From the NCBI GenBank assembly GCA_018662925.1, contig JABJFC010000079.1, forward strand, positions 1 through 33,310: DNA of 33,310 nucleotides. Reading direction: 5' to 3'. A model generated the notes under the pieces. It was given only the letters and a program-made list of their open reading frames with translations, was not told where the DNA came from and ran no database searches. The translations under genes were made by a program, and so were the position numbers. Shown here piece by piece: positions 23,642 through 33,310 of the stretch. The first letter of the stretch is position 1; every line of letters starts with the position of its first letter. The stretch is from Alphaproteobacteria bacterium. GTDB taxonomy: Bacteria > Pseudomonadota > Alphaproteobacteria > 16-39-46 > JABJFC01.

Positions 23642-24112
23642 TTACTCATTTTTAAGAAGCCGACTTTTTTGGCGGTTCCAGTCGCGTTCCTTTTCCACTG
23701 CGCGCTTGTCAACTTGGTGTTTTCCGGTTGCGATGCCAAGGGAGAGCTTTACGAGACCACGCTTGTTAAAATACATTGATAGAGGAATCAGTGTAACACC
23801 CTTCTTTTTAATGGCGGCTAATAATTTGTTCAGCTCCCGCCTTTTCAAGAGTAATTTACGGGGGCGACGGGTTTCATGGTTCAATTGATGGGATTCAGTA
23901 TATTCGGGGATATAGGCGTTGAACAAAAAGAGCTCGCCCTTGTCCTCCCCCGCGTAGGACTCTTTAATGCTCGCTTGCCCTTTTCTTAAAGCCTTGACTT
24001 CGCTACCTACTAATATAATACCTGCCTCGAGGGTAGATTCTATAAAGTAATCATGGCGAGCTTTTCGATTTTGAGCTACTATTCGGTTGAGGGATTTGAT
24101 TTTCTTGGCCAT
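23642..24112 (-). CDS. smpB: SmpB, tmRNA-binding protein
   Basis: A 156-residue basic protein, the usual length. It binds the tRNA-like part of tmRNA and brings it to stalled ribosomes. Family stretches are visible: VAQNRKARHDYFIE, GIILVGSEVKALRKGQASIKESYA near residues 31-54 and the GLVKLSLGIATGKHQVDKR region, followed by the basic C-terminal tail DWNRQKSRLLKNE that enters the mRNA channel. The ATG at 24112 (MAKK opening) is preferred over a GTG four codons upstream; neither has a clear ribosome site. Its partner tmRNA is encoded at 28325-28714, also on the minus strand. Confidence 0.95.
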   Translation of the reverse strand: MAKKIKSLNRIVAQNRKARHDYFIESTLEAGIILVGSEVKALRKGQASIKESYAGEDKGELFLFNAYIPEYTESHQLNHETRRPRKLLLKRRELNKLLAAIKKKGVTLIPLSMYFNKRGLVKLSLGIATGKHQVDKRAVEKERDWNRQKSRLLKNE

Positions 24113-24264
24113 GGTACTATACACTTAATGGGGAGAGACGAGTCCCTACCATATACAGAGTTCTGAAGGATTTAAAAAGGGAAAAGGCGTTGAAGGTGAA
24201 TAATAGACAGGGATTATGTGGCAGATATTCCACATGGGGAATAATAAAATTGGGTATAGAAAGA

Positions 24265-26238: not shown

Positions 26239-26430
26239 AATATAGACTCTAATGGTGCTAGAGAGATTGGCAGAGCGTGCTTCATCAATGTTTTCTATTA
26301 GCTTGTTGAGGGGGACTCCTTTTGTGGCTGCAATTTTCTTTAGTTCTTGCCAAAAAGGTGTTTCAAGGGAAATACTTGTTTTGTGGCCCCATAGTGTAAT
26401 GGAGTGCTTTTGAAGAGAGGATTCAGTCAC
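26218..26430 (-). CDS. Ribbon-helix-helix protein (RHH_4 type)
   Basis: A 70-residue protein matching the RHH_4 family (PF13467-like). [19 protein letters not shown] (residues 11-29) holds the beta strand that pairs in the dimer and contacts DNA, followed by two helices and a final [11 protein letters not shown]. Small proteins of this type are frequent next to fumC in alphaproteobacteria. The start is GTG at 26430, overlapping the fumC stop as GTGA; the TTG at 26466 would overlap fumC by 40 nt. No target is known. The 3' end overlaps slt on the opposite strand. Confidence 0.8.
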
Positions 26431-27818
26431 TCTGTAGGGCCAATCATTTTTTCGGGCCGGACCCAAGTATCAAATTCTTTTTCTGAGACATACCCTAATG
26501 CTAAAGAAGCTTCTTTGAGGGTTAGGTCTTCATTGTAGGCTTTTTTTGATATTTCAGTAGCATTATCATAGCCAATGTGAGGAGAAAGTGCCGTTACGAG
26601 CATGAGAGATTGTTCTAGAAAGTCATTAATACGATCATGATTTGCTTTGATTCCAGAAACACATTTATCAGCAAAGACCCGCATCCCATCGGAAAGTAGC
26701 ATAATCGATTGGAGCAGGTTATAAATGATAACTGGATTAAAGACATTTAGCTCCAGGTGTCCCGAGGCGCCGGCAATGGTAATAGTGACGTGGTTGCCCA
26801 TGACTTGGCTCGCGATCATGGTCAGGGCCTCAGCTTGAGTTGGGTTAACTTTCCCGGGCATGATGGAAGATCCAGGCTCATTTTCAGGGAGGATGATTTC
26901 TCCAAGGCCGCTTCGGGGGCCTGATCCAAGCAAACGAATGTCATTTGCAATTTTCATGCAGGATGTGGCTATTACATTAAGGACTCCCGACAGTTCAACG
27001 AGTGCGTCGTGGGAAGCCATTCCTTCGAACTTATTTTTAGCAACGCAAAACGGAAATCCCGTCGCTTTTGCAACTTGCTTGGCAAACTTCTTATCAAAGT
27101 CTTTCTTTGCATTAAGGCCAGTCCCTACAGCTGTGCCCCCTTGAACTAGTGGATACAGCCTGGGCAAAGTTCCATCAATTCGTTCAAGTCCAAGGGAAAT
27201 TTGTTCTGCATATGCTGAGAATTCCTGTCCCAGCGTGATGGGGGTTGCATCTTGTAAATGGGTACGCCCCAATTTAACTATGTCCTGAAAATCCTTAACC
27301 TTTTTTTCCAACGCTTTATGAAAGTGCTTAAGGGAAGGAATGAGGGACTCTTGAACTTCAAGGACTGCGGCAATGTGCATGGCGGTGGGGAAAGAATCAT
27401 TTGTAGATTGGGCCATGTTTACGTGATCATTAGGGTGAATGGGTGCTTTTGACCCCAAAGAGCTGCCAAGAAGTTTGTTAGCACCATTTGCAATGACTTC
27501 GTTTAGGTTCATGTTTGTTTGTGTACCAGAACCCGTTTGCCAAACAACAAGTGGAAAGTGGTCGTCATATTTTCCGGAAATGATTTCATCTGCGACCTGG
27601 CAGATCACTGAACCTAGCTTTGGTTCAAGGGATTTTAGATCCATGTTTACAAGGGCAGCAGATTTTTTCTGAAGGGCAAAGGCGTGGATAAAGGCAAGGG
27701 GAAGCCTTTCATTTCCGATAGGGAAATTTTCCAAAGACCTTTGGGTCTGGGCACCCCAGTACTTGTCGCTCTCAACAGCCATCTTCCCGAAGGAATCTGT
27801 CTCGGTGCGCTTTGACAT
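26427..27818 (-). CDS. fumC: Fumarate hydratase class II
   Basis: A 463-residue enzyme converting fumarate to malate in the TCA cycle. Family motifs: [16 protein letters not shown] (93-108), [21 protein letters not shown] (128-148), [10 protein letters not shown] and the signature [11 protein letters not shown] (316-326). Being class II, it is free of the iron-sulfur cluster. The ATG at 27818 comes 10 bases after the sspB stop; the open frame runs 11 codons further into sspB and is not preferred. It is followed by the RHH gene with overlapping stop and start codons, so sspB-fumC-RHH looks like one transcript. Confidence 0.96.
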
Positions 27819-27828
27819 TGTAGTGGCT

Positions 27829-28290
27829 TTATTTTTTCCGGAAGGTATCAAGGGTGATCACCTTTCCTGTTGGATCTTCTGCAGCTTTTGCTTTCCCTTT
27901 TTTGGAGGTTTTTTTCGGTGCGGGTGGAAGTTCCTCAGGAAGTTCAGTAGGATTAAACTGGAGGCCGAACTTAACCGAGGGATCCACAAAACCTGTGATG
28001 GCTCCATAGGGTACATAGATAGGTTCTTGAATGTCATTAAAGCTCAAAGTCACATAAAATCCTTTAGTATCAACCTTTAAATCCCAAAATTGGTATTGAA
28101 GGACGATGGTTACTTCATCGGGATGGCGTTCTTTCAAATAGTCTGCCATTTCAACACCAGGATAGTGGGTTTGGAAAGTGATATAAAGGTGATGTTGTCC
28201 TGGAAGGCCATCTTTTTCAACCAATTTAAGGACGTCTTTTACAACACTTCTAAGGGCTTCTTGGACGATTTCTTCGTAATATATGGTCAC
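27829..28290 (-). CDS. sspB: SspB (alpha type), ssrA-tag adaptor for ClpXP
   Basis: A 153-residue protein matching alphaproteobacterial Ssp[51 protein letters not shown] and [16 protein letters not shown] near the end of the folded domain. A Lys/Pro/Ala-rich linker and a short C-terminal tail follow, where the adaptor docks on ClpX. It holds ssrA-tagged proteins for degradation. The GTG at 28290 is supported by AAGG 8 nt upstream and gives a family-like MTIYYEEI start; GTG 28317 is an alternative. It begins about 35 nt after the tmRNA coding piece ends, on the same strand, leaving no obvious room for its own promoter. Confidence 0.92.
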
Positions 28291-28324
28291 GTTATTGCCT
28301 TTTATTGACCTAGACACACAAAAT

Positions 28325-28714
28325 ATGGGGGCTTCTGTTGCCCGGTGCCCCCGAACCGCGCGTTATATTAACTAAATACAACGACTTAAACTACATAAAT
28401 CAAATTCTTTCGAATCAGATTAAGCAGCCATTGTTGCAGCTTCGTGATTGTCGTTGATAAAGTCACCTCTAACACCAACATTATCATTTACTGCAGTTAC
28501 TAATGTATCGGCATTTATTTTGCCTAGCCCGATAACGGTGGTACCATGCCGAGCAAAAAGCAAATCTTTACTACACACGTCGATCCTGTTTCACCCCCAC
28601 AAAAAGAATGCCTAAAACCGAAAGTTCATTCCTTTGGTGGAGGCGCCGGGTACTGCCCCCGGGTCTGTAATGCTTATTCCATCAACCGTTTATTGCCATA
28701 GTTGGTCTCCCAAC
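28325..28714 (-). ncRNA. ssrA: Two-piece, circularly permuted tmRNA (ssrA)
   Basis: Read on the minus strand. The acceptor piece (28714-28635) opens with a GTTGG-GAGA-CCAAC hairpin and ends in a T-arm (CCGGG/CCCGG around a 7-base loop) and CGCCTCCACCA. After about 36 nt the coding piece starts at 28598 with GGGGGTGAAACAGGATCGACG. Its first seven bases pair with the acceptor CGCCTCC strand, with a G-U pair at position 3, the alanine identity element. The tag frame ends at TAA 28422-28420 and encodes NDNHEAATMAA, preceded by ATC. Helices follow, ending with GGGGGC/GCCCCC (28352-28327). The order acceptor-then-coding is that of alphaproteobacterial tmRNA, which is cut into two RNAs. Exact mature ends are approximate. 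Confidence 0.93.
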
Positions 28715-28720
28715 ACCTTT

Positions 28721-28748
28721 AATATAAGCTATTTTCGGTGATTTTCAA
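28721..28748 (-). promoter_or_regulatory. Sigma70-type promoter of ssrA
   Basis: On the minus strand, TTGAAA (28748-28743) and TATATT (28726-28721) are separated by 16 bp. Transcription would begin about 7 bases later, at the first hairpin of the acceptor piece. The boxes match 5/6 each, fitting a strongly expressed RNA. It may also serve sspB. Confidence 0.65.
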
Positions 28749-28782
28749 AGGATTTTAGAAGTTTTTTCTGGTTTTATTTTTT

Positions 28783-28842: not shown

Positions 28843-29799
28843 GTGCTTACAGATGATCAAAAAGCTGGAATTGAAGAGCAACGTACAACTGAGTTTAAGA
28901 CGCGTCGGGCAACAGTTCCTACGTTAGAGGATATTCTCTATACGGCATTTCCCGTATTAGATCATGGGTTTGTACGAGTCGTTGATTATATGGGGGATGA
29001 TCAAGCCGTTGTACAGGCGGCAAGGGTTTCTTATGGGCGTGGGACAAAAAAAGTCAGTGAAGACAAGGGGTTAATTAATTATTTGATGCGTCACCGCCAT
29101 TCTACACCTTTTGAGATGTGTGAGATCAAATTTCACGTAAAGTTGCCCTTTTTTGTGGCACGACATTGGATTCGTCACCGGACGGCTAATGTAAACGAGT
29201 ATTCTGCCCGTTATTCTATCCTTGACAATGAGTTTTATATACCGGCACCTGATCAATTAGCGGCGCAAGCAACGGAGAATCGTCAGGGGAGAGGTCGAGT
29301 CTTAACAGGCGCTGAATCCGAGAAGATCTTGAAAATGTTGAAAGAGGATGCGCTGCAATCCTATGAGCATTATGGTGAAATGCTCAATGTAGATGATCAA
29401 GGAGTTGTCAAAGATCCTGAAAACTCTGGTTTGGCACGTGAACTTGCACGCATGAATCTTTCCCTTAATTTCTACACCCAGTGGTATTGGAAGGTCGATC
29501 TTCATAATTTGATGCATTTTTTGTCTTTGCGTTGTAGCGAGTTTGCTCAATACGAGATTCGTGTTTATGCCCAGGAAATGATCAAGATGCTAAAAAAATG
29601 GGTTCCACATACGTACGAGGCTTTTGTGCAGCATCGCCTAGAGGGCGCTGGATTGTCACGGGGCGGGCTAGAGGCCGTCAAGAAACTTATTCGGGGACAA
29701 AATGTAAGCCGAGAAGATGTGGGGCTGACTGCACGTGAATGGCGTGAGTTGACAGATTTGTTAGAAATGGATCTTGAGAACCCGCAGAAAGTGGCATAG
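28843..29799 (+). CDS. thyX: Flavin-dependent thymidylate synthase
   Basis: A 318-residue ThyX, which makes dTMP from dUMP using FAD and methylenetetrahydrofolate. The signature RHRxxxxxxxS is present as [11 protein letters not shown] (111-121), and [20 protein letters not shown] (81-100) precedes it. [18 protein letters not shown] is the other conserved part. Length is slightly above the family's usual 220-300, owing to an N-terminal extension of about 35 residues and a C-terminal tail. The start is GTG with GGAG 7 nt upstream. No thyA is in the window, and absence elsewhere cannot be judged. Confidence 0.95.
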
Positions 29800-30155: not shown

Positions 30156-31061
30156 TTAGTATATATACTTTTTGCTTTTTATCTTTTGCGTAACGCCCAT
30201 GATATAGTCACTTAGTTGAAGAATTTGTTGCGACTTCCTAAGTCTTTCTGGATAGGTGAAACAGAGATCTAGGGAGGGACTTTTTGCCTTGGGCATGATC
30301 TCAACCAGGTTGGAATATCTCAGTCGCTGGTTATCTTGAGGGAAGGTTGCAATTCCCAGGCCTTGCTCGGCTAAATGAATGAGACTAGCTCCAGAATTTA
30401 TTTGAATCACAGGCCTTCTACTCTGTCCGGGCGAAGTTCCTGCAGAAAGATGCCAATTCAGTTCCGAAAAAGGATGAATATGAGTTCCATATCCCAAGAG
30501 CCGATGACTATCTAGCTCTTCGAGGGTTTCTGGGGTGCCATATTTCTTTAAATATTGGGGACTTGCATACAGTTTTAAGGGGGAGGAGAGCAATAATTGT
30601 TGAATTAGATGGGTTGCTCCTGGGATAAAAGGCCAAATGGCAGCATCTATTTCTTTTGGAGAGAAGGCTGGTTCTTGGTCATTGTTTAAAACTATCAGTT
30701 TAACCTCAGGATTTTTTTTCATAAACTCTGAGAGCTTATTTATAAGAAAAGTAAAAGAGATTCCCTCTGTTGAAGCTATTTTGATGGTTTTTTCTTTATC
30801 GGTAAAAGTTTTTTGCATGGAGCTTCTTATGGACTCCATCTCAGAAATTGCTTTTTTTGATGCTTCATACAAAATTTGCCCGTGCTTCGTAAGTAACAAT
30901 CCACGAGCATAACGGCTAAAAAGCTTCACATTCAGCTGTTTTTCCAAAGCGATGATTTGGCGACTTAGAGCCGATCTGCTTAAGTATAGATTTTTGGCGC
31001 CAATGGCAAAGCTTCCCGCGACGGCCACATAGTAAAAACTTTTGATTTTATCCCAATCCAT
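30156..31061 (-). CDS. LysR-family transcriptional regulator 1
   Basis: A 301-residue LysR-type regulator: winged helix-turn-helix at residues 1-60 (FYYVAVAGSFAIGAKNLYLSRSALSRQI, seen near residues 8-36), then a linker helix and a two-lobed periplasmic-binding-type effector domain (about 90-295) with TIKIASTEGISFTFLI at its start. The ATG at 31061 has AAGGAG 11 nt upstream, inside the end of regulator 2; the two genes overlap by 14 bp. The protein starts MDWDKI like regulator 2, so the pair arose by duplication. Targets unknown. Confidence 0.9.
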   Translation of the reverse strand: MDWDKIKSFYYVAVAGSFAIGAKNLYLSRSALSRQIIALEKQLNVKLFSRYARGLLLTKHGQILYEASKKAISEMESIRSSMQKTFTDKEKTIKIASTEGISFTFLINKLSEFMKKNPEVKLIVLNNDQEPAFSPKEIDAAIWPFIPGATHLIQQLLLSSPLKLYASPQYLKKYGTPETLEELDSHRLLGYGTHIHPFSELNWHLSAGTSPGQSRRPVIQINSGASLIHLAEQGLGIATFPQDNQRLRYSNLVEIMPKAKSPSLDLCFTYPERLRKSQQILQLSDYIMGVTQKIKSKKYIY

Positions 31062-31971
31062 GTAGAGGCTTCTCCTTATCAGAGATGGCTTGGGTTGAAT
31101 CAAAGACTTCTTTCAGAAAGTTGCCAAATGCTAGGACTGCTTTGGAATACATTAAATGGTGAGGGTAAACAAAATTGAAATCGATCTTTGGTCCTGAGAC
31201 GTGGGGCAGAATTTCAACGAGATTGGATCCCTGAAGTCTAAAGTTTGATTGGCATAAAGAAATGATTCCCAAACCCTTTTCTGCAAGTTGGAATAGACTC
31301 GTCTCCGAGTTTACGAGGAGGAAAGGTTGACGAGATTTTCCATTTTTTGTGCCAATTGATAGAAACCAATTTAATTTAGATGAGGGGTCCATATATCCTC
31401 CACGAGAGATGAGGCGGTGGCACTCAAGATCTTCGGGGTGTTTAGGCGTCCCAAATTTTTCTAGATATTTAGGACTGGTGTATAGTTTGAGTTGAGAGGA
31501 TACAATTGGTGATTGAAAAAAGCCTCTTTTGGATTCTATGGAAGGGATTAAGGCTGCATCTACACTTCTTAGGGCCAACTCTGAGCTTTTGTCACAATTC
31601 ACAATTTTCAACTGAATGTTTGTGTGTTGGTTGATGAAGTCATCTATTTTCCCCATGACACATGATCGAATGCTGCTTGCAAGGCCTATTGTCAGAGGGC
31701 CAAAGGGGTCAGTTTGATCTTCACGAATCAGAGATTCGGCAAGCTCGAATTCGGAATGCATTATTTGAGCAGAGTGATAAAGCGCTTCCCCTTCCTTTGT
31801 AAGCACAAGCCCCCGTGAGTGCCTTTTAAAGAGTTTAGATTTTAGTCTATACTCAAGTGCACTAATTTGGCGACTCAGCGCAGACTGAGTTACTTCCATC
31901 TGCTCAGCAGCAGAGGTAAAGCTTCCAGACTTCGCTATACGATAAAATACTCTAATTTTGTCCCAGTCCAT
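31048..31971 (-). CDS. LysR-family transcriptional regulator 2
   Basis: A 307-residue LysR-type regulator with the helix-turn-helix SGSFTSAAEQMEVTQSALSR (residues 15-34) followed by QISALEYRLKSKLFKRHSRGL, which is more canonical than regulators 1 and 3. The effector domain begins near 90 with PLTIGLASSIRSCVMGK. Similarity to regulator 1 runs along the whole length (shared MDWDKI, KLYxSPxYLxKxGTP, LNWxLS). It translates just before regulator 1 and the two are likely one transcript. The ATG at 31971 has a GGGAAG very close upstream, poorly spaced. Confidence 0.9.
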   Translation of the reverse strand: MDWDKIRVFYRIAKSGSFTSAAEQMEVTQSALSRQISALEYRLKSKLFKRHSRGLVLTKEGEALYHSAQIMHSEFELAESLIREDQTDPFGPLTIGLASSIRSCVMGKIDDFINQHTNIQLKIVNCDKSSELALRSVDAALIPSIESKRGFFQSPIVSSQLKLYTSPKYLEKFGTPKHPEDLECHRLISRGGYMDPSSKLNWFLSIGTKNGKSRQPFLLVNSETSLFQLAEKGLGIISLCQSNFRLQGSNLVEILPHVSGPKIDFNFVYPHHLMYSKAVLAFGNFLKEVFDSTQAISDKEKPLHGLG

Positions 31972-32163
31972 CTTCCCAGTCGATGATAAAAATAGTTCCC
32001 TAATACTTTATTGATTGTCATCTAATAGGGGTTATTAAAATAAGTCAAGCTGGAGAATTTGTGCAACAAAGTAGTCTCTTTTGAAGACAACTTAAAAGTT
32101 TTCATTTTATTTCAATGGATTGTCGTTTCTTTTATCAAAATGTAAAACAGTTTAAATGAAGAG

Positions 32164-32204
32164 TATTCCATATTTTCACGCCTGAAGCGTGCAAAAATGG
32201 AATA
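32164..32204. repeat. Long inverted repeat between LysR 3 and LysR 2
   Basis: TATTCCATATTTTCACGC (32164-32181) pairs with GCGTGCAAAAATGGAATA (32187-32204) around a CTGAA loop, with 16 of 18 positions complementary. It lies 14 bp beyond the stop of regulator 3. No T run follows on either strand, so it is either an atypical terminator or a binding site. It is the largest palindrome I found in non-coding DNA here. Confidence 0.7.
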
Positions 32205-32218
32205 GCTAGTTTGAAATC

Positions 32219-33136
32219 CTATTCAGCTTTCTGAATGGTTACGTTGTGGTGCTTTAGAAAGGCTTTGAAGAAATTTTCAAATATCTCGATATTCTTTTTC
32301 GTTGTTGGATTTACGTTTTTGTTCACACAAAAAAATGTTTTGGTACAGGGGCCATCAATATGGGGGAGAACTCTTACTAAACTGGACTCAAAAAAGGGAC
32401 TTGGTTCTACGGGGGCTGAGCAAATCCCGATCCCTTCTTTTGCCGCAAGAAAAACAGAGGTTGAGGAATTTACAGTGAAGTCCGGTTTTAATTTTGGAAA
32501 ATCTGGGTGCATTCCTTTGAGGTGCCAATTAATGTTTGAAAAATGCGAAAATTCATGTTCACCGTATCCTATGAGGCAATGATTCTGCAGGTCCTGGGGC
32601 GTTTTTGGTGTTCCCATACGCTCTAGATATTCTTTGCTGGCAAATAATCCATGTTGATAGGGGATATACCACTTCTTTTCAAAGTGGTTTGTTTCAGTAA
32701 GAGGTCTAATCATAATATCAGACGCGACTTCCTCTTTCTTGGAAAGGTAATCGTTGGATGTAATATGTGTTGTGAAGTTTGGGTGTTTTGAATGAAGAGT
32801 TTTGAGGCTTTTTATCATCCAGCCTGATACAACAGCTTTCGTGGTAGAAATAACAATTTGGATTTTAGAGTTTGCAGTTTGGGGCTGGGAGAATTTGTTT
32901 TTTGCGTGTTCCAGGGTGGTGTGAACGTCTCGAATGTAAGGGAGAAAGGCGAGGCCTTCTTTGGTGAAGGAGGAATGCCGCTTATGTCTATTAATAAGTT
33001 TTATGCCAATTTCTTTTTCGATTTCATCCACATGTGACCACATGGTTGCCCTCGGAATGCCAACGGACTTGTGGACACCAAAATCGCAGTTACTTTCTTC
33101 CAAATAAAGTAAAGTTTTCAGACTCTTAAGTTTCAA
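32219..33136 (-). CDS. LysR-family transcriptional regulator 3 (divergent)
   Basis: About 305 residues. The effector domain is recognisable by its shared elements with regulators 1 and 2 (FASKEYLERMGTPKTPQDL, INWHLKG, SSTSVFLAAKEGIGICSAP). The N-terminal helix-turn-helix has lost several usual residues (GVHKSVGIPRATMWSHVDEIEKEIG, read near residues 19-43), so its DNA recognition may differ. The start is TTG at 33136, chosen for the strong GGAGG at 33143-33147 six bases away; the frame runs open to 33220 but the added residues are not family-like. It is separated from regulator 2 by 247 bp with the inverted repeat. Targets unknown. Confidence 0.82.
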   Translation of the reverse strand: MKLKSLKTLLYLEESNCDFGVHKSVGIPRATMWSHVDEIEKEIGIKLINRHKRHSSFTKEGLAFLPYIRDVHTTLEHAKNKFSQPQTANSKIQIVISTTKAVVSGWMIKSLKTLHSKHPNFTTHITSNDYLSKKEEVASDIMIRPLTETNHFEKKWYIPYQHGLFASKEYLERMGTPKTPQDLQNHCLIGYGEHEFSHFSNINWHLKGMHPDFPKLKPDFTVNSSTSVFLAAKEGIGICSAPVEPSPFFESSLVRVLPHIDGPCTKTFFCVNKNVNPTTKKNIEIFENFFKAFLKHHNVTIQKAE

Positions 33137-33310
33137 ACGAAACCTCCATTTCGTGGTTCCTATGAATTTTTTGCACACCCTACCCTGTGAAAAAAAATCA
33201 AACCAACGAGCAAATTGCAAAATTAGGTGAGTGAGTTAATTTTTGTTGTCTTTAAGAAGCGACAAACCAGACAAAAATACCAGGTCCTCCTGTTATTGGG
33301 GTTTAATAAG

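Follow-up and report, generated by a model that had tools for sequence, protein, structure and literature searches.

The locus raises the question whether the tmRNA gene (ssrA) and the gene for the adaptor SspB stand side by side as a functional unit or as a remnant of inherited gene order. Both are carried by the window, the whole stretch of alphaproteobacterial DNA analysed here (33,310 nt, contig JABJFC010000079.1).

Genes of the locus

Five genes are considered. Coordinates are those of the window.

23642..24124, minus strand: smpB, 4.2 kb downstream of ssrA (PF01668, E 4.4e-54)
26427..27818, minus strand: fumC, encoding a class II fumarase; its ATG start is likely about 10 nt past the sspB stop (PF00206, PF10415, sequence)
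27829..28290, minus strand: sspB, alpha-type SspB adaptor (PF04386, E 3.6e-41; 2NYS, 2QAZ; family alignment)
about 28324..28714, minus strand: ssrA, whole permuted alpha tmRNA gene (RF01849 and sequence)
28843..29799, plus strand: thyX, divergent neighbour upstream of ssrA (PF02511, E 3.9e-57)

The tmRNA gene is of the alpha two-piece type and is present in one copy in this genome. The whole RF01849 model (alpha_tmRNA, positions 1-355) is matched at 28324-28753 on the minus strand with 227.6 bits (E 5.9e-65), above the gathering score of 50 bits; the alpha tmRNA claimed in an earlier note on this DNA is thus recovered by a covariance model. A second Rfam match, RF04321 (tmRNA_permuted), covers 28420-28697. 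ARAGORN called no tmRNA at this locus, and the Rfam models were used instead. The gene is circularly permuted: GCCTCCACCA, with the CCA end at 28635, precedes GGGGGTGAAACAGG (28598) on the minus strand, and RF04321 agrees. Its parts are as follows, in order of transcription.

28721..28748, minus strand: promoter-like site TTGAAA-N16-TATATT, from which the ssrA(-sspB-fumC) transcript is predicted to start (sigma-70-like consensus scan)
28635..28714, minus strand: acceptor piece, encoded first, ending in GCCTCCACCA (RF01849, sequence; boundaries from acceptor-stem pairing judged by eye)
28599..28634, minus strand: intervening segment between the CCA (28635) and GGGGGTGAAACAGG (28598), predicted from the sequence to drop out on cleavage of the permuted transcript into two pieces
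28324..28598, minus strand: coding piece, starting with GGGGGTGAAACAGG (RF01849, sequence)

The right edge given in the earlier note, 28714, lies closer than 28753, the Rfam edge, to where the mature 5' end is likely to be, and is preferred because the best promoter-like site falls inside the upper Rfam span. That site has 10 of 12 consensus matches and is the best of 4 in 3 kb, no excess over the 4.9 sites expected from shuffling. The block CTTATATTAAAG recurs 5' of ssrA in relatives of the same order. The coding piece ends 3' in a hairpin, GGGGGC..CAACAGAA-GCCCCC, with a weak U tract, AUAUUUU, after it. The permuted gene with its acceptor piece first, the intervening segment, and the coding piece with tag and 3' hairpin are those of the two-piece tmRNA of Caulobacter crescentus and Sinorhizobium meliloti (RF01849), matched here over the full model length.

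By sequence, SspB is an ordinary member of the alpha type (Lessner et al. 2007; 2QAZ, 2QAS, 2NYS). It has the PF04386 domain, matches 2QAZ, a solved SspB, as well as the homologue 2NYS (phmmer E as low as 2.4e-34), and aligns full-length to 2NYS. sspB is single-copy in this genome. The longest ORF runs from GTG 28317; the likely start is GTG 28290, which has AAAAGG upstream and fits the family alignment. The order on the minus strand is ssrA, 36 nt, likely sspB start, fumC, so that the two genes are consecutive on one strand as first described, with identities confirmed by Rfam and Pfam.

The earlier note also linked smpB to the pair. Its distance of 4.2 kb on the same strand stands, but the proximity is a property of this genome only: within the neighbourhoods examined, smpB lies near ssrA in no other surveyed genome, and the link was rejected on that ground. 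fumC and an opposite-strand SLT transglycosylase gene lie between ssrA-sspB and smpB. Since this SLT gene intervenes between smpB and fumC, a transcript shared with smpB is unlikely, and one functional cluster of ssrA, sspB and smpB with a selected placement of smpB is hardly credible.

At the far end of the window, three LysR-type regulators stand in a row (30156-33220, minus strand), two of them overlapping at 31048-31103.

Gene order in the class

The survey comprises 115 alphaproteobacterial genomes, one per family. A tmRNA that passes the Rfam cut-off is present in 105, SspB in 103 and both in 101. sspB lies 36-259 nt downstream of ssrA on the same strand in 68/101 (measured from the ssrA end to the start of the SspB domain), and 0.5-7.6 kb downstream, likewise on the same strand, in a further 9/101. 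All 77 genomes with sspB at most 8 kb downstream have it in the orientation of ssrA; in part of the genomes outside the 77, the two genes are parted only by contig breaks. An insert separates ssrA and sspB in G003, G009, G022, G027, G039 and G100. In a second sample, drawn mostly from named records, the pair is tight in 50 of 82 SspB loci, named ones including those from Magnetospirillum, Azospirillum, Telmatospirillum, Reyranella, Parvibaculum, Sneathiella, Caedibacter and Paracaedibacteraceae. SspB loci of Sphingomonadales and Hyphomonas have no ssrA inside 5 kb. The viral collection holds two SspB loci only, neither with an adjoining ssrA match.

Chance adjacency is excluded, because 68 of the 101 families share the tight same-strand order. 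The order is close to a class-wide rule in Alphaproteobacteria. Conservation over several genera, proposed in the earlier note as the check, is found widely in both samples; that note had not regarded the arrangement as a general rule in alphaproteobacteria, contrary to what the survey shows. Three relatives of the same order (G115, G116, G117) have ssrA without sspB following; in G116 a single contig carries both genes at a distance of 62 kb, and no SspB was found in G115 and G117.

The adjacency is largely expected. A 2007 paper (PMC2245857) has both tmRNA flanking genes conserved in alphaproteobacteria and smpB not linked; in Cand. Pelagibacter ubique, thyX adjoins tmRNA (PMC2704228, Table 1). 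As far as the accessible portions of the two papers go, genes recur or are conserved beside alpha tmRNA, thyX among them, as here, and sspB is not named.

The pair may also have persisted merely as part of an inherited order thyX-ssrA-sspB-fumC, sspB having its own promoter, perhaps in the 3' part of ssrA, and being expressed independently of it. In about 40 families, thyX and ssrA are linked. In well-assembled genomes this functionally unrelated gene lies within 10 kb of ssrA in 19/27 of those having it, compared with 34/45 for sspB. Where the pair is broken, sspB often remains with fumC (G008, G012, G042, G052, G062) or thyX (G085, G106). The S. meliloti sRNA study calls the functional link between alphaproteobacterial sRNAs and their neighbours uncertain (PMC2245857). 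Spacing and strand argue the other way. Tight links in 48 well-assembled genomes number 28/45 for ssrA-sspB, 12/27 for thyX-ssrA and 9/34 for sspB-fumC; the tight link is kept more often for ssrA-sspB than for sspB-fumC (Fisher p 0.003), and somewhat, not significantly, more often than for thyX-ssrA (p 0.15). The single orientation in all 77 genomes points in the same direction.

Synteny alone is weak evidence of coupling and does not prove it. A simple coupling claim from synteny was dropped because the link of thyX, a gene not known to take part in trans-translation, is nearly as frequent.

In G085 (C12:23062-24447) and G106 (C14:42186-44551), thyX adjoins sspB and ssrA lies elsewhere, as if the latter had moved out of the cluster.

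Evidence on a shared transcript

At the locus, the hairpin and the SD-preceded GTG of sspB are on one strand and 36 nt apart. There is little room for a separate promoter in this gap, which has no promoter or terminator match in consensus scans, themselves weak evidence, and a weak U tract after the hairpin. In 61/67 surveyed ssrA-sspB gaps, no promoter site with at least 9/12 matches is present, a figure that is supportive only, as short gaps hold fewer sites by chance. The U-tail 3' of ssrA is weaker where sspB follows: with GC and T content corrected for, it holds 0.86 fewer T per 10 nt (p 0.02), and a permutation stratified by GC gives p 0.013. The lack of a promoter-sized gap and the weaker tails both count against an independently expressed sspB, and inherited order with uncoupled expression is considered rather unlikely. 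In its favour, a U tract is still present after ssrA in many loci.

Judged from the sequence, sspB is most likely expressed by read-through from the ssrA promoter. An ancestral alphaproteobacterial ssrA-sspB unit, with one promoter for the tagging RNA and its adaptor and, in this lineage, an extended NDN-repeat tag, is regarded as probable. In such a unit, a sigma-70-type promoter before ssrA would drive a permuted tmRNA precursor, and part of the transcription would continue beyond the 3' hairpin into sspB and, in this genome, into fumC. The precursor would be cut into the two-piece tmRNA, for which a review (PMC3985003) proposes RNase P and tRNase Z as processing enzymes, and the downstream part would be translated into SspB. 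SspB would then bind the N-x-N of tmRNA-added tags and hand the tagged proteins to ClpXP; the delivery of tagged proteins to ClpXP by SspB is described in the same review, citing Lessner et al. 2007. With one promoter, tagging RNA and adaptor would be made together, and the amount of tmRNA relative to SspB mRNA could be set by incomplete termination at the 3' hairpin.

Several observations stand against a shared unit. thyX is linked nearly as well without a known functional tie, and shared ancestry may suffice. The same-order relatives lack the pair, the genome G030 (below) keeps the tag motif despite having no SspB, and the final tmRNA stem-loops of S. meliloti were interpreted as a terminator (PMC2245857). 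Adaptor supply would, as the earlier note proposed, be matched to tmRNA supply; this is favoured by the little room for a promoter at the locus, the weaker tail with sspB, and the joint absence of SspB and the tag motif in one order. The functional link suggested in that note gains indirect support from the weaker U-tails and from tag-adaptor covariation. Gene order would then link the supply of an adaptor for degradation with the RNA that gives rise to its substrates, in most of the class, and the coupling can be tested on this widespread pair in common laboratory species.

Tag length, tag motif and SspB

The tag frame of this ssrA is long.

28420..28512, minus strand: tag reading frame, resume codon GCC, ADTLVTAVNDNVGVRGDFINDNHEAATMAA and stop, 30 codons, two NDN motifs (sequence)

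It has a stop and the AA end (EAATMAA) of the alpha two-piece class. The tag is about 30 codons in length, compared with a class median of 12 and with 12 residues in S. meliloti (PMC10117765). The resume codon was set by its distance of 12 nt from the conserved TTATCGGGCTA block, the class range being 9-12 nt. Resumption at a later GCA (AVNDN...), with the first six codons structural, would fit the resemblance of GCA-GTA-AAT-GAT-AAT to the usual GCN-AAY-GAY-AAY start, but would put the resume codon 30 nt from the block; such a misreading is improbable, and the tag from GCA would still have 24 codons and two NDN motifs.

Long tags are also found in G005, G006, G013, G017, G020, G055, G072, G085, G092, G103, G110, G111 and G116 and, among the named loci, in L193-L198. 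At least two N-x-N motifs are present in 10/13 one-per-family long tags, compared with 4.1 expected when the first motif is fixed and the other residues are shuffled (p 0.00015, for a motif chosen after the tags were seen). This stricter test replaced a first shuffle without the fixed motif, in which 1.6 were expected. The long tags of G005 and G072 have no N-x-N motif. Mycoplasma tmRNA tags, far longer than 10-15 residues and recognized by Lon, no SspB being known there, are likewise long, but belong to a different phylum. A 2025 tmRNA database paper describes, in its accessible part, extremely short tags and a commonest length of 10, and makes no mention there of repeated motifs.

Repeated N-x-N in long tags would represent repeated adaptor sites, and the two NDN of the present lineage probably give the adaptor two sites. 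A broader reading, in which about a dozen families, this one included, have tags of 20-40 residues with 2-3 N-x-N, a single tagged protein could be held at two or more SspB sites, and tag and adaptor coevolve, the motif being lost with SspB, is put forward tentatively, as somewhat doubtful. The repeated-motif lineages could serve to ask whether multivalent tags alter ClpXP delivery.

Tag motif and adaptor vary together. N-x-N is present in the tags of 98/101 SspB-holding families. In one order (G098, G118-G156), SspB is absent in 40/40 genomes and N-x-N is found in no tag read; the tags have 9 codons (ANDELALAA, ANESYAIAA, ANESYALAA, ANNKLALAA and similar). G049 has no SspB, fumC directly after ssrA, and the tag AKSDYAEYALAA. 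G083, also without SspB, has a one-piece, unpermuted tmRNA within the class (C7:644426-644829, L275; RF00023, 152.9 bits) and the tag ADDNFEYAMAA. Two counterexamples are known: G030, from a family (f31) in which all sampled genomes are without SspB, has the tag ANDNELALAA, and G002 (81% complete) keeps ANDN. By family, SspB and N-x-N are associated at p 0.0004-0.005 according to how cases are counted, the independent losses being few. The comparison of tags is a natural experiment, the SspB-lacking lineages showing which residues the alpha adaptor likely needs.

Short tmRNA-like elements occur besides the complete genes. In some genomes of the SspB-lacking order, additional short tmRNA-like matches score under the cut-off. 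The three same-order relatives G115-G117 have a second, short element (L188:3291-3416, plus strand; L189:4001-4126, minus strand; L190:4060-4186, plus strand) that matches no Rfam family above the cut-off. It has TTGACA-17-TAACCT upstream, an NDN-containing frame that also folds as a hairpin, and a 3' end like the tmRNA pseudoknot, the acceptor part being absent.
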